From: Chloroflexaceae bacterium
Lineage (GTDB): Bacteria; Chloroflexota; Chloroflexia; Chloroflexales; Chloroflexaceae
Direction: 5' to 3'
Assembly (NCBI GenBank): GCA_025057155.1
Contig: JANWYD010000001.1
Span: forward strand, 271,113 to 335,112
DNA: 64,000 nt
Made by a program: the position numbers and the translations under genes. Below, piece after piece: positions 22,336 through 48,962 of this stretch (positions are counted from its first letter, which is position 1; each line of letters opens with the position of its first letter). The notes under the pieces are model-generated. The model saw only the letters and a list, made by a program, of their open reading frames with translations. It ran no database searches and had not been told where the DNA came from.

Positions 22336-22606
22336 GGGTGTGACGAAACGTCTTGCACGCTCCCCTTCGCCCGGCGGCTTATTACGCATTAAATCCGGTA
22401 TAGCCCGCGCAGGCGGGCTTCGCAGCTACCGGGCGAATACCGGTTTATATTCTTAATCTTCATAAGCCGCGGGCTAACGTCCTGCGAAGTCGGCCTGCGT
22501 CGGCTTCAGCAGGCTACGCAGGCAGCCTTCGCAATGCCAGCCGGAGCCTTCAGGCTCCCGGCGGGCCGGTGGGCCGCGGCACGTGCAGAACGTTTCGTCA
22601 CACCCC
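22336..22606. repeat. 271-bp segment bounded by 24-bp inverted repeats
   Basis: GGGTGTGACGAAACGTC...GCACG (22336-22359) reappears inverted at 22582-22606 with two mismatches. The enclosed DNA has nested hairpins such as AGCCCGCGCAGGCGGGCT, and CCGGTAT words inverted across about 60 bp. It contains no gene. It may be a small mobile remnant or a structured intergenic repeat. The whole gap 22309-22730 shows no coding potential. Confidence 0.5.
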
Positions 22607-42027: not shown

Positions 42028-42034
42028 TTACAGC
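41987..42034. repeat. 24-bp tandem direct repeat spanning the metK stop codon
   Basis: Two 24-bp units beginning ACACAGCTCAGA (41987-42010 and 42011-42034) differ at one base. The second unit contains the metK stop codon and the last codons, so the first looks like a recent small duplication of the gene's 3' end. Confidence 0.6.
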
Positions 42035-43242
42035 CCCGCGGCCCGGCGCAACGCCTCGACCTTATCGGTGCGCTCCCAGGGCACGTCAATGTCAGTGCGC
42101 CCGAAGTGGCCCCCGGCTGCTGTCTGGCGGTAGATGGGCCGGCGCAGGTCCAGGTCACGGATAATTGCTCCGGGTCGTAGATCGAAGACCTCATTGACGG
42201 CCTTGAGGATCACCTCATCGGCGACCTTGCCGGTGCCGAAGGTCTCGACGCTTAATGAGAGGGGGCGGGCCACGCCAATAGCGTAGCTCACCTGGAGTTC
42301 GACCCGATCGGCCAGGCCGGCGGCGACGATGTTCTTGGCGACCCAGCGGCAGGCATAGGCGGCGCTGCGGTCCACCTTGCTGGGGTCCTTGCCGCTGAAG
42401 GCCCCACCGCCGTGGCGAGCCACTCCGCCGTAGGTATCAACCACAATCTTGCGCCCGGTCAGTCCCGTATCGCCCATCGGACCGCCGACGACGAACCGGC
42501 CGGTAGGATTGACAAAAATCTTGGTCTGGGTATCGAACCACTCTGGCGGCACCTCAGCCTTGATCACATGCTCGATCATATCGGCGCGGATCTGTTCCTG
42601 GGAAACGTGGGGAGCGTGCTGGGTGCTGATCAGGACCGTGTCAACGCGCACCGGCTTGCCATAGCTGTACTCGACGGTAACCTGACTCTTGGCGTCGGGG
42701 CGCAGGTAGGGCAGGTCGCCGGTGCGCCGCACTTTCTCCAGGCGGCGAATCAACCGGTGCGCCAGGGCGATCGAAGCGGGCATTAACTCGGGGGTTTCGT
42801 TGCAGGCAAAGCCAAACATCATCCCCTGATCGCCCGCGCCAATTGCTTCCACCTCGGCCTCAGTCATCTCGCCTGTCCTGGCCTCCAGGGCCTTATCTAC
42901 CCCCATCGCAATATCGGGCGACTGGCCATGAATGGCCACCAGCACGCCGCAGGTGTCGGCGTCGAAGCCATACTCGGCGCTGGTGTAGCCGATCTCTTTA
43001 ACCGTGCGCCGCACAATCTCTTCGATCGGAATATAGCCCTTCTCGTAGGTGATCTCACCGAGCACCACAATCAGGCCGGTGGTGGTAGCGGTCTCACAGG
43101 CCACGCGAGCGCGCGGATCGTGGGTCAGGAACGCGTCGAGGATGGCATCGCTGATCTGGTCGCACATCTTGTCGGGGTGCCCGCTGCTCACACTTTCGCT
43201 GGTGAAGTAGAAGCGGGGCGAGGTCATGAATGTGTTGGCCAT
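42028..43242 (-). CDS. metK: S-adenosylmethionine synthetase
   Basis: The 404-residue protein has all MetK signatures: [22 protein letters not shown], the ATP hexapeptide [15 protein letters not shown], and [16 protein letters not shown] near the C-terminal half. It makes SAM from methionine and ATP. The start has AGGAAGAGG upstream. It is the last gene of an apparent minus-strand run of kinase-like, ahcY and metK genes, but is separated from ahcY by 208 bp containing several small hairpins (for example GAGGGCTTTGCCCTC). It may therefore be partly independent. Confidence 0.98.
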
Positions 43243-43450: not shown

Positions 43451-44776
<1,326 letters not shown>

Positions 44777-44804
<28 letters not shown>

Positions 44805-45769
44805 GTGCCGCTGCTCAGGGCTTCGGCGGGCAGGTTGTGGCCGAAGGCCCGGCGGTAACGCTCGGCAAACTCGGCCCGGCTGTAGGCATGTTCCTGGCAG
44901 CCGCGATGCTCAATGGCATAGGCGGCGGCCAGGGCGGCGATGCGCCCGGTAACTTCAAGCGGCAGGTCGCGGGCAATGCCAAAGGCCAGGCCGGCCAGAT
45001 AGGCGTCACCGGCGCCGGTGGGATCCTTCACCTCGGCGACAGGGGCGACAGGAATACGGGCGGCCAGGCGGCCCTCGGTATAGATCAGCGAGCCCTGTTC
45101 GCCGCGCGTGACCACTGTGAGGGGTGTGGCGGCGATCAGTTCCTCTTCGCTGATGCCAAGTTTCCGAGCCATCATCCCGAACTCATAGTCATTGCCCACC
45201 AGCACCCGCGCGCCGCGCAGGCCGACTTCCAGGTGATGCGCCGTCAGGCGCGGGGCCTGCTTGCCCGGGTCGAAGATGTAGGGCACGCCCAGTTGCTGGC
45301 ACTCGACACTGAAGCGCTCGATGGCCTCGGGGCTGGTCGGCGAGATCAGCACCAGATCATCGCTGACCAGGCCGCGGTCGCTCAAGGAGCGGTGATGGTC
45401 ATGGCTCATCGCGCCCGCGTAGAAAGCGACGATCTGGTTGTTGGCGCGGTCGGTGTTGATGAAGCAGGAGGAGGTAAACTCATGCTCAATGACCGTGATG
45501 CCGCTGATATCCACTCCCTGCTGCTCCAACCAGCGCCCATAGTCCGCGAAGTCGTGACCAACCGTGCCCACAATCAAGGGGCGCTCGCCGAGCAGGGTCA
45601 GGTTATAGGCGATGTTTCCGGCTACACCCCCGCGCATTTTGCGCATCGAATCGACCAGGAAGCTGACGGAGAGCATATGGGCCTTCTCCATCAGCATATG
45701 ATCACGAAAATAGCCCGGAAAGTCCATAATGTAGTCGAAGGCCAGCGAGCCGGTTACAACAATCCGCAC
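44777..45769 (-). CDS. PfkB/ribokinase-family kinase, probably adenosine kinase
   Basis: The start chosen is GTG 45769, with AGGAG 9-10 nt upstream; the longer frame extends into a repeat. The 330-residue protein has the PfkB signatures: GGVAGNIAYNLTLLGERPL near the N-terminus and the catalytic/anion-hole motif DPTGAGDAYLAGL. Its place directly before ahcY, with the gap holding small palindromes, points to phosphorylation of the adenosine that AhcY releases. The family alone does not prove the substrate, and ribokinase-like alternatives remain. Confidence 0.8.
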
Positions 45770-45807: not shown

Positions 45808-46064
45808 GTCTGTAAACAAGGTCTTTCCCTAAATCCTCTCCCCCTCCCCGACCCTCCCTCACCAGGGGAGGGTGTCCGGCTCATCCTCCAACGTGGGAGA
45901 CCGGGAGGGGGCGGAAAGGCCAGGAAACTTACTCGTCTGTAAATTAAGTCTTTCGCTACACCCTCACCCTCTCCCCAACCCTCCCCCAGTGGGGAGGGAG
46001 GCCAGCTCCTCCAATGGGGGAGGCCGGAAGGGGACGGAAATGCCAGGAAACTTGCTTTACAGAC
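45808..46064. repeat. Two adjacent MITE-like elements
   Basis: Left ends GTCTGTAAAC (45808) and GTCTGTAAATTAAG (45935) are direct copies. The right end GGAAACTTGCTTTACAGAC (46046-46064) is their inverse. The interiors repeat CCCTCACC/GGGGAGG words. The arrangement looks like one truncated element followed by one complete element (130 bp). They fill most of the 465-bp gap upstream of the kinase gene, which has no other feature except scattered GGTTGC words. Confidence 0.6.
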
Positions 46065-46234
46065 TACTACGCCCGCCCAGAATAAAATCGGATAAACCGG
46101 TTATCCGAATGGATCCACGTTGTGCACTGGCAAGCCCTGTTCCCCGACTGGCAAGGAACGAGGGTGTTTCTGAGAGGACGCAACCTTCCCAGACACTCCC
46201 ATTCGTGAGGGGCAACCCGGTTTCCCCCATGCCC

Positions 46235-47293
46235 CTACGACGACGGGCGCAGCGGTTCGGCGACGGGTCGAGGCGCCTGAACGAGGCCAAAATGGGCCTG
46301 CGCCGCCGCGGCGATCGCCGCGCAGAGTGTTGCAGCGCGCGCCGCCTGGTCAGCGGGCAGATGGCTCAGGGTGCTACAGGTGCTGACCAGGGAGCGGCTG
46401 GCGATGGCTTCTGCGGGCGTTCCGCTTGCCGTGGCCACCTGCGTGATGGCCCCAATGAAGCGTTGCGTCAGGAGGCCCTGCCACTGCTCGACCAGCTCGG
46501 GTATTTCCGCGGGCACGACGCCCCATCCCAGGGCCCCGCCACGCTCGAGGAACTGACCAATCGCCTTCGCCGCCTGCACCAGTTCGGCTTCGCGTCTGAC
46601 AGCATCAAAGAAAATCAGGTCGGCGGGAAGTTCAAGCAGGTCGGCCCAGCGCATATTTCCCGCAACGCATAGACCGCGCCAGCCGGGGAGTTCGGCCAGG
46701 GTGCGCGCCAGGAGATCGGCCCCTTCGTCCCAATCCAGCGGGCAGAATGGTGAGTACACGGCTTCAAGGAACGTTTCGTCAAGGCATAGCAGCGGCGCGG
46801 CGCCGGTCATGGCGATCTGCTCGTAGAGCCAGCGCGCCCGCAGGGCCACGTGCTGGCCCAGGGCCTCGCGCAGGGCCGGATCGTAGGCCAGAGGGCGCTC
46901 GTGCTCGTCCACGCTCAACAGCGACAGACTGATCGGCCCGGTTACCTCGACCTTCACGATGCGCGGGCGGGCAGGTTCGAGCGGTCGCACCTGTTCCAGC
47001 AAGGCGGCCTGGTACTCGGCAGGGGGTGCCCCGACGGAGCGTTCACCGCGCAGGTAGGCGAGCGCCAGGCGGTCGAGGCCTCGCTCGGCGCCCCTGAGTT
47101 GCACGACAGCTCGATAGGTTTCACCAACGAAGGTCAGACCGGGAAAGCCGGCCAGGGAAAGCGCGAAGGGGTTGGCGTGTGTTCCGCGCTGGCCCAGCGT
47201 AACGATGGCGGTCGTCCCGGCGGGGGAGGGACCGGCAGAGGGCAAACCGGCCCGAGGCGCCGGCAGACAGGCGGGAACAAAGGTTTGCGCCAT
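46235..47293 (-). CDS. MetE C-terminal-like / UROD-superfamily methyltransferase
   Basis: The start chosen is ATG 47293; the longer frame would overlap mtnA. The 352-residue protein has the TIM-barrel look of the cobalamin-independent methionine synthase catalytic half: TLGQRGTHANPF near the start, KVEVTGPISLSL, LLCLDETFLEAVYSP and GALGWGVVPAE. Of the MetE zinc ligands, a Cys in GLCVAGN and a late Cys in VSTCSTLSH are kept. The preceding His is not seen and the Glu position may be Asp. It follows mtnA by 61 bp and should share its SAM-I control, so a role in methionine formation is likely, with an unknown methyl donor. Confidence 0.65.
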   Translation of the reverse strand: MAQTFVPACLPAPRAGLPSAGPSPAGTTAIVTLGQRGTHANPFALSLAGFPGLTFVGETYRAVVQLRGAERGLDRLALAYLRGERSVGAPPAEYQAALLEQVRPLEPARPRIVKVEVTGPISLSLLSVDEHERPLAYDPALREALGQHVALRARWLYEQIAMTGAAPLLCLDETFLEAVYSPFCPLDWDEGADLLARTLAELPGWRGLCVAGNMRWADLLELPADLIFFDAVRREAELVQAAKAIGQFLERGGALGWGVVPAEIPELVEQWQGLLTQRFIGAITQVATASGTPAEAIASRSLVSTCSTLSHLPADQAARAATLCAAIAAAAQAHFGLVQAPRPVAEPLRPSS

Positions 47294-47354: not shown

Positions 47355-48407
47355 CTACCGCATCTCTCTAACAACGCGGCGCAGACCGTCGCCAAACGGC
47401 GGATGGACGACACCCCGTTCGGTGATGATTGCCGTAATCAACTCATTGGGTGTAACGTCAAAGGCGGGGTTGGCTGCCCGCACATTGGCCGGCGCGACCA
47501 GCCGGTCACCGCAGTGGGTGACCTCTGTTTCGGGACGTTCTTCGATCGGGATCTGATCGCCGTGGTCGAGTGAAAGATCGATGGTTGATGATGGCGCGGC
47601 GACGAAGAAGGGCAGGCCATGGGCGCGCGCAAGCACGGCGAGGCTATAGGTGCCGATCTTGTTAGCCGTATCGCCATTGGCCACGATGCGGTCGGCGCCG
47701 ACGATCACGCAATCCACGCGCCCGCAGCGCATCATGTAGCCGGCCATGTTGTCGGTGATCAGGGTCAGGGGGATACCCGCCTGCTGCAACTCCCAGGCCG
47801 TGAGGCGGGCGCCCTGAAGGAAGGGGCGCGTCTCGTCCACGAAGACGTGGATCGGGCGGCCCTGGGCAAAGGCGGTACGAATAGGGGCCAGGGCCGTGCC
47901 GTAGCCGGCGGTGGCCAGCCCCCCTGCGTTGCAGTGGGTGAGCACATGACCTCGCGCAGGGATCAGGGGCGCCCCGTGGTCGCCAATCGCGTGGCACATA
48001 GCCAGGTCCTCGGCCAGAATGGCATGGGCTTCGTCCAGCACCGCGGCGCGTATCGCCCCCGGCCCCTCGGGGGCGCTGGCCCGGGCTCGCTCGAGCACGC
48101 GGCGCGTGGCCCAGGCCAGGTTGACCGCGGTCGGTCGCTGCGCGTCCAGGGTGGCCTTCGCCGCCTCCAGTTCAGCGATGAGGTCGCTCACTGAAACTGC
48201 CTGACTGCACCGGGCCGCCAGGGCCATGCCGTAGGCAGCGGTGCACCCGATGGCCGGCGCGCCGCGCACCACCATCGCCTTGATCGCCCACGCCACCGTC
48301 GCCACATCCTCGCAGCGTACCGTTTCCTGCACGTGGGGAAGACGGCGCTGATCGATCAGGCAGACCGCCCCTTCCTCCCACCAGACTGTTCGCAGTTCTT
48401 CGGCCAT
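47355..48407 (-). CDS. mtnA: Methylthioribose-1-phosphate isomerase
   Basis: The start chosen is ATG 48407, 5' to a conventional MtnA N-terminus (LRTVWWEEGAVCLIDQRRLP); the longer frame runs back through the riboswitch. The 350-residue protein has RGAPAIGCTAAYG, THCNAGGLATAGYGTA with the catalytic Cys, and the GADRIVANGDTANKIGTY segment with the catalytic Asp. It isomerises 5-methylthioribose 1-phosphate to the ribulose form in methionine salvage. No mtnK, mtnB or mtnP gene is seen nearby. Transcription is under the SAM-I riboswitch and terminator that occupy the 5' leader. Confidence 0.96.
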   Translation of the reverse strand: MAEELRTVWWEEGAVCLIDQRRLPHVQETVRCEDVATVAWAIKAMVVRGAPAIGCTAAYGMALAARCSQAVSVSDLIAELEAAKATLDAQRPTAVNLAWATRRVLERARASAPEGPGAIRAAVLDEAHAILAEDLAMCHAIGDHGAPLIPARGHVLTHCNAGGLATAGYGTALAPIRTAFAQGRPIHVFVDETRPFLQGARLTAWELQQAGIPLTLITDNMAGYMMRCGRVDCVIVGADRIVANGDTANKIGTYSLAVLARAHGLPFFVAAPSSTIDLSLDHGDQIPIEERPETEVTHCGDRLVAPANVRAANPAFDVTPNELITAIITERGVVHPPFGDGLRRVVREMR

Positions 48408-48412
48408 ATTGT

Positions 48413-48440
48413 AAGAAAAGCCTCTCGCGCGGCGAGAGGC
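48413..48440 (-). terminator. Intrinsic terminator of the SAM-I expression platform
   Basis: On the minus strand GCCTCTCGC, a CGC loop and GCGAGAGGC form a perfect 9-bp stem, followed by TTTTCTT. It ends 6 nt before the mtnA start codon. Its left arm (CCTCTC) can also pair with GAGAGG at the 3' end of the aptamer's P1 helix, giving an antiterminator when SAM is absent. Confidence 0.9.
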
Positions 48441-48451
48441 TGGATGCGTTC

Positions 48452-48588
48452 CTCTCATCTTTCGGCGAACGCGCGCGCCCCGCCGCTGGAATTGGCACCG
48501 TTCCGCATTGCGGCCGTGGCTATCGCCGTGCCGCTGCAGAGGTTGCCGGGCTTCATCGGGCCAGTCCCTCAGCCCCTCTGGATGAGCG
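48452..48588 (-). promoter_or_regulatory. SAM-I riboswitch (S-box) aptamer
   Basis: The minus-strand RNA has all S-box hallmarks in order: P1 5' strand CTCATC (48586-48581), GAGGGACTGGCCC, the invariant GATGAAGCCCGGCAACC, then GGTGCCAATTCC, then GAAAGATGAGAG. The final GATGAG (48459-48454) closes P1. The element binds S-adenosylmethionine. With a terminator directly downstream and mtnA as the first gene, it should act as a transcriptional off-switch. The match covers every conserved core segment, so the call is very secure even without a covariance search. Confidence 0.97.
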
Positions 48589-48633
48589 CTATGGAGTTCG
48601 ATGGGCCGGTTGAACCCCTCCGAACGATGCGCG

Positions 48634-48662
48634 ATTATAACATGCCCGTCTGTCTGTGACAA
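48634..48662 (-). promoter_or_regulatory. Promoter of the SAM-I/mtnA operon
   Basis: TTGTCA (48662-48657), a 17-bp spacer and TATAAT (48639-48634), preceded by TGT, form the best promoter in the window on the minus strand. Transcription would start near 48627, about 40 nt before the aptamer. Confidence 0.85.
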
Positions 48663-48741: not shown

Positions 48742-48882
48742 TGTGGAGGTGTGGAGGTGAAATTTCAGAGGTTTCGCCCTCCCCGACCCTCCCGTTCACC
48801 TGCTCCACACCTCCACACCTCCACACCTCCACACCTCCACACCTCCACACCTCCACACCTCCACACCTCCACACCTCCACAC
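48742..48882. repeat. 8-bp tandem array CTCCACAC x10 with an inverted partner
   Basis: Ten exact CTCCACAC units occupy 48803-48882, followed by two decayed ones (TTCTACAC, CCCTACAG). An inverted short copy, TGTGGAGGTGTGGAGGTG, lies at 48742-48759. It sits between the mtnA promoter and the 3' end of truB. Such an array is prone to slippage and should vary in length between strains. Confidence 0.85.
48803..48882. repeat. Exact ten-copy core of the 8-bp array
   Basis: Ten consecutive identical CTCCACAC units, the only perfect tandem microsatellite-like array of this size in the window. It is useful as a strain-typing locus and marks where the dispersed 8-bp family has expanded. Confidence 0.9.
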
Positions 48883-48962
48883 TTCTACACCCCTACAGAC
48901 CGGTTACGTGGAGCTGTACAGGGGGCGGCCATGAAGCCGGAACGCCGATTGTGAACCATGCC

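Follow-up and report, generated by a model that had tools for sequence, protein, structure and literature searches.

The minus strand of the window (the whole 64-kb stretch of DNA that was analysed) carries a full-length SAM-I riboswitch in front of mtnA, a gene whose product is predicted to have the fold of the MetE catalytic domain, a kinase gene, ahcY and metK. This arrangement is best explained, with a probability of roughly 0.78, by standard SAM-I attenuation of a SAM-cycle operon that includes an inserted, zinc-less paralogue of the methionine synthase MesB. At high SAM, the aptamer would bind its ligand and fold, helix P1 would hold the GAGAGG segment and the terminator would form, halting transcription before mtnA. 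At low SAM, GAGAGG would instead pair with CCUCUC and block the terminator, and mtnA, the MetE-fold gene, the kinase gene, ahcY and metK would be read. The products would handle the by-products of SAM, namely MTA (MtnA) and SAH (AhcY and the kinase), and MetK would remake SAM itself. The MesB paralogue, which has lost its zinc site, probably entered the operon in an ancestor of the Chloroflexales; it would most likely serve SAM/MTA/SAH recycling, either as a repurposed enzyme or as a ligand-binding accessory protein. The riboswitch alone is routine, and the surprise lies in the conserved extra paralogue. The features are listed below with their window positions and the evidence for each.

48634..48662, minus strand: sigma-70-like promoter, TTGTCA-17-TATAAT with extended -10 TG (consensus scan, 11/12)
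48452..48588, minus strand: SAM-I (S-box) riboswitch aptamer, full length (RF00162; same place in relatives)
48419..48441, minus strand: intrinsic terminator hairpin, 10 bp, 3-nt loop, U-rich tail (hairpin scan and relatives)
47355..48407, minus strand: mtnA, S-methyl-5-thioribose-1-phosphate isomerase (TIGR00512, 442 bits, cut-off 279)
46235..47293, minus strand: predicted MesB/MetE-fold protein, 352 aa, without zinc ligands (model, ligand loss, order-wide conservation)
46088..46108, minus strand: weak terminator-like hairpin in the gap that separates the MetE-fold gene from the kinase gene (hairpin scan)
44777..45769, minus strand: PfkB-family kinase (PF00294, 129.6 bits; kept between the MetE-fold gene and ahcY)
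43451..44713, minus strand: ahcY, adenosylhomocysteinase (TIGR00936, 640 bits, over cut-off)
42028..43242, minus strand: metK, SAM synthetase (TIGR01034, 591 bits, over cut-off)

The SAM-I leader

The promoter, S-box core segments and downstream mtnA proposed by the sequence-only reading were all recovered on the minus strand, the core segments lying within 48662-48404. The promoter (48662-48634) matches the consensus at 11 of 12 positions with an additional upstream TG, and is the best of 6 sites within 9 kb, a stretch in which shuffled sequences give 1.6. The search with the Rfam model RF00162, which had been suggested as a check, returned a significant match at 48588-48452 covering the complete model (positions 1-108) with 80.8 bits and an E-value of 1.9e-17, compared to a gathering score of 44.4 bits, and this was the sole SAM match inside the window. 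The aptamer departs from the model by an insertion in one variable stem only, with no difference in mechanism, and the leader shares with other SAM-I (S-box) elements the full-length aptamer, the terminator/antiterminator layout and the methionine/SAM genes downstream. The riboswitch itself is thus of an ordinary, already known kind.

The terminator with its TTTTCTT tail was present as described from the letters, except that the stem comprises 10 bp rather than 9 and the tail stops 5 nt, not six, ahead of the mtnA start codon (ATG 48407). Its U tract is short. Since no enrichment was found for terminator-like sites in general (7 compared to 5.1 in shuffled sequences), the weight of this terminator comes from its position and from the same arrangement in relatives. 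The 5' arm of the terminator contains CCUCUC, the complement of the GAGAGG at the 3' end of helix P1, and the two segments could form an antiterminator in which, as in textbook SAM-I leaders, the last strand of the aptamer pairs with the terminator arm; judged by this complementarity, the predicted expression platform is exclusive with P1. When the leader was folded without constraint, both P1 and the terminator were obtained (-98.9 kcal/mol), forcing the antiterminator cost about 6 kcal/mol, and P1 was gone from the predicted fold once the transcript was cut before the 3' arm of the terminator. The GAGAGG/CCUCUC layout, followed by a hairpin with a U-rich tail, is present in most relatives read; Chloroflexus leaders have a poor U tract, and three loci (L084, L100 and L173) show weak or different pairing. 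Termination in vivo would follow from this layout, and because AGAGG, the sole Shine-Dalgarno-like stretch seen near the mtnA start, sits inside the 3' arm of the terminator, an extra translational effect is also possible.

Two further repeats were noted in the window. An 8-bp tandem repeat (CTCCACAC) occupies positions 48803-48897, about 140 bp ahead of the promoter that precedes the riboswitch, and a match to CRISPR-DR28 of Rfam (38.2 bits), comprising one repeat only, lies at 22401-22424 on the minus strand.

Operon genes and the reach of control

The start of the MetE-fold gene is probably ATG 47293 and not GTG 47413, the latter falling inside mtnA. The PfkB-family kinase is probably an adenosine kinase, judged by its neighbourhood. 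In relatives, the intergenic gaps of the operon shrink to a few bases or to overlaps, and ahcY and metK there likely belong to one operon, and one transcript, with the riboswitch. In the window, the MetE-fold gene is separated from the kinase gene by 465 bp that include the weak hairpin (8-bp stem) followed by TTTTATT, and this gap with its terminator-like hairpin renders the control of ahcY and metK uncertain. The same gap harbours two diverged copies of an approximately 125-bp repeat starting GTCTGTAAA (45808-46056). It is therefore conceivable, with odds that are appreciable yet short of even, that in this species the riboswitch controls mtnA and the MetE-fold gene only, the kinase-ahcY-metK part being transcribed separately behind the repeat-bearing gap. 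Against such a split, the corresponding gap spans about 30 to 140 bp in three of the four close sisters and shrinks to near zero in others, and a consensus scan found no minus-strand sigma-70-like site within the 465 bp. The sister sequences read contain neither the hairpin nor the repeat in this form. Read-through of the gap into kinase-ahcY-metK seems likely on this evidence.

Conservation of the operon in Chloroflexales

The coupling of mtnA to the MetE-like gene, proposed for this lineage from the single sequence, extends over the whole order. The MetE-fold protein was found in 58 of 61 genomes, and its gene adjoins mtnA on the same strand in 54, that is, in 54 of the 55 informative genomes; among the four exceptions, three represent contig ends and are uninformative, and one (G040) is a true separation, in which the MetE-fold gene stays with kinase-ahcY-metK and mtnA is found elsewhere, beside a gene for a RuBisCO-like protein. 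The three genomes without the protein (G043, G059 and the low-completeness G020) say nothing about the pairing, since the orthologous kinase is absent as well and the operon is missing from their assemblies. Where contigs allow, the order mtnA, MetE-fold gene, kinase gene, ahcY, metK is kept in members of all four Chloroflexales families sampled. Named matches among the relatives belong to Chloroflexus, Chloroploca, Viridilinea and Oscillochloris, which places the window in an uncultured Chloroflexales bacterium, and in Chloroflexus mtnA and the MetE-fold gene overlap by 4 bp. An extra Chloroflexus gene between the kinase gene and ahcY was considered as a candidate mtnP and rejected, its translation resembling a Gfo/Idh-type oxidoreductase.

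At least 36 genomes have a SAM-I leader ahead of the operon: 35 were detected by script, and in one more (G003) the leader and the start of mtnA lie on another contig. In several relatives, among them the Roseiflexus-like group and L073/L075, no such leader was detected ahead of mtnA, and a search of the leaderless loci did not reveal a sub-threshold SAM riboswitch either, so that SAM control of the operon is not universal. In genome G316 (L173), from outside the order, the SAM-I leader and mtnA are followed by about 330 bp of non-coding DNA and then by the kinase gene, ahcY and metK, with no MetE-fold gene. Insertion of the MetE-fold gene into an older SAM-I operon is consequently the simplest reading and a probable one. 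In G316, a TPP riboswitch (L173 5017-5130, minus strand) is oriented divergently from the SAM-I leader.

The MetE-fold protein is related to MesB

Sequence searches of Pfam, NCBIfam and PDB with the MetE-fold protein gave no match, and Meth_synt_2 (PF01717) was detected neither in this protein nor in 25 relatives nor elsewhere in its own genome. An AlphaFold2 model built from 22 natural sequences (pLDDT 83.5) compares with MesD (3rpd) at Z 23.2, with MetE (3l7r) at Z 22.7 and with UROD at about 20, and the modelled structure accordingly places the protein in the MetE catalytic-domain fold, with MetE and MesD somewhat above UROD. A profile of the operon family matches MesB-like proteins of other Chloroflexota, mostly with 210-290 bits, and in a phylogenetic tree the family forms one group separate from MesB (support 90/82). 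Hence the designation "MetE-like" in the sequence-only reading is borne out as far as predicted fold and profile kinship to MesB are concerned; in function, the protein is probably not a MetE. Open frames of about 700 aa, which raised the possibility of a MetE-fold fusion, were dismissed, as the MetE-fold frames read there have a length of about 345-350 aa.

The ligand positions tested correspond to His641, Cys643, Glu665/Asp and Cys726 in E. coli numbering. According to alignment, the MesB-like proteins of other Chloroflexota carry the zinc ligands (HCC, FDAY, SCGL), whereas the window protein, aligned with MesB by MAFFT, has C209, A211, D230 and S307 at these positions. The His/Cys/Cys set occurs in 12 of 12 MesB proteins and in none of the 39 operon members examined, and most MesB-invariant residues are lost in the operon family. 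At the ligand positions, the Roseiflexus-like protein has Y, C, D, Q, and one Chloroflexus protein has F, S, H, G. The same YCDQ and FSHG replacements were described by Price et al. 2021 in Chloroflexales MesB-like proteins, for which another function was proposed (PMC7857596), and comparison of the sequences indicates that the operon family is the clade set aside in that study.

It is very improbable that the protein works as a true folate-independent methionine synthase like MesB, by which the operon would make methionine directly. The protein does share the fold, MesB is its nearest characterised relative, and the DEP motif and the Asp ligand are kept in many family-1 members. However, the His/Cys/Cys set of zinc ligands is lost in all members examined, and the genome encodes MetH under a SAM-I leader of its own; Price et al. 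2021 concluded likewise for the Chloroflexus and Roseiflexus homologues (PMC7857596). The core methionine synthase MesB of Dehalococcoides (PMC7005905, PMC7857596) has the same single-domain MetE fold and is the nearest protein by profile and tree, but it possesses the zinc ligands and stands in a Wood-Ljungdahl gene context, whereas the operon protein lacks them and is encoded beside mtnA, ahcY and metK. In comparisons of same-genus relatives and two more distant ones, the MetE-fold gene showed dN/dS values of 0.20-0.41, about 2- to 8-fold above those of its neighbours (0.03-0.17), and is therefore under purifying selection yet fast-evolving. A MesB-like paralogue with apparently intact zinc ligands (HCC, FDAY, TCGL) was observed in the same genome (L155, G000:C3:64545-65501).

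SAM riboswitch regulons of Chloroflexi have already been surveyed in a general way (PMC3766115). No paper joining SAM riboswitch, mtnA, ahcY and metK in Chloroflexi was found in the literature search, and the main text of Price et al. 2021 contains no mention of mtnA or of a SAM riboswitch (PMC7857596). The operon thus adds to this clade a genomic context that was not found in the literature searched, placing zinc-less MesB-like proteins left without function in 2021 beside MtnA, adenosine recycling and SAM synthesis.

Methionine metabolism and the fate of MTA

The genome carries three SAM-I leaders, located before the mtnA operon, before metY-metX (genes named from their translations) and directly before metH. 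The latter two point to a coherent methionine/SAM regulon, and the presence of metH shows that a B12-dependent methionine synthase is available to the cell. MTAP (mtnP) and MtnA exceed their cut-offs in 56 of 61 genomes each, the genome under study included, while neither the dehydratase MtnB nor the dioxygenase MtnD exceeded the curated cut-off in any of the 61. Because of the latter result, the term "methionine salvage" used in the sequence-only reading is doubtful, although its first two genes, mtnP and mtnA, are present. In Bacillus subtilis, mtnKA is under S-box control. A SAM-I leader ahead of mtnA is common to both systems; here, in contrast, mtnA heads the MetE-fold gene, the kinase gene, ahcY and metK, and mtnB and mtnD were not found. 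The order as a whole appears able to make 5-methylthioribulose-1-phosphate (MTRu-1-P) through MtnP and MtnA while lacking the known genes that return this compound to methionine.

Other outlets were considered. RuBisCO-like proteins, seen as weak matches distinct from true RuBisCO, occur in 3 of 61 genomes only, and the isoprenoid shunt was rejected as a general route on this count. Many genomes, though not all, encode class II aldolases related to MtnB, so that a DHAP-shunt route is possible in some. According to a review, a pathway ending at MTRu-1-P looks metabolically impossible, the compound being so reactive (PMC6302742). Together with the near-universal mtnP and mtnA and the location of the gene directly after mtnA in 54 of the 55 informative genomes, these observations could be taken to mean that the MetE-fold protein is a new enzyme consuming the MtnA product in place of the MtnB/C/D route. 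This seems unlikely: in G040 the gene stays with kinase-ahcY-metK and not with mtnA, strict conservation is seen at few pocket positions, unusually for an enzyme, and the operon of the outside genome does without the MetE-fold gene. Cys9 and Glu173 stand out as conserved candidate residues of the pocket. The broader proposal that the zinc-less paralogue, having been inserted at the Chloroflexales root into the older SAM-I operon, acquired a new function in catalysis or regulation, which might be the step lacking after MtnA, is a tentative one with rather low odds.

Some gene clusters of the relatives deserve mention in their own right. In G040 (L107 4511-8714), an mtnA of another type is followed by two transketolase halves and the RuBisCO-like protein, which suggests an isoprenoid-shunt-like route for MTA. 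Two further loci (G049:C239:11301-14361 and G059:C4:6816-10463) combine an MtnA-like protein, two MTAP-like proteins and a class II aldolase, and resemble a DHAP-shunt cassette.
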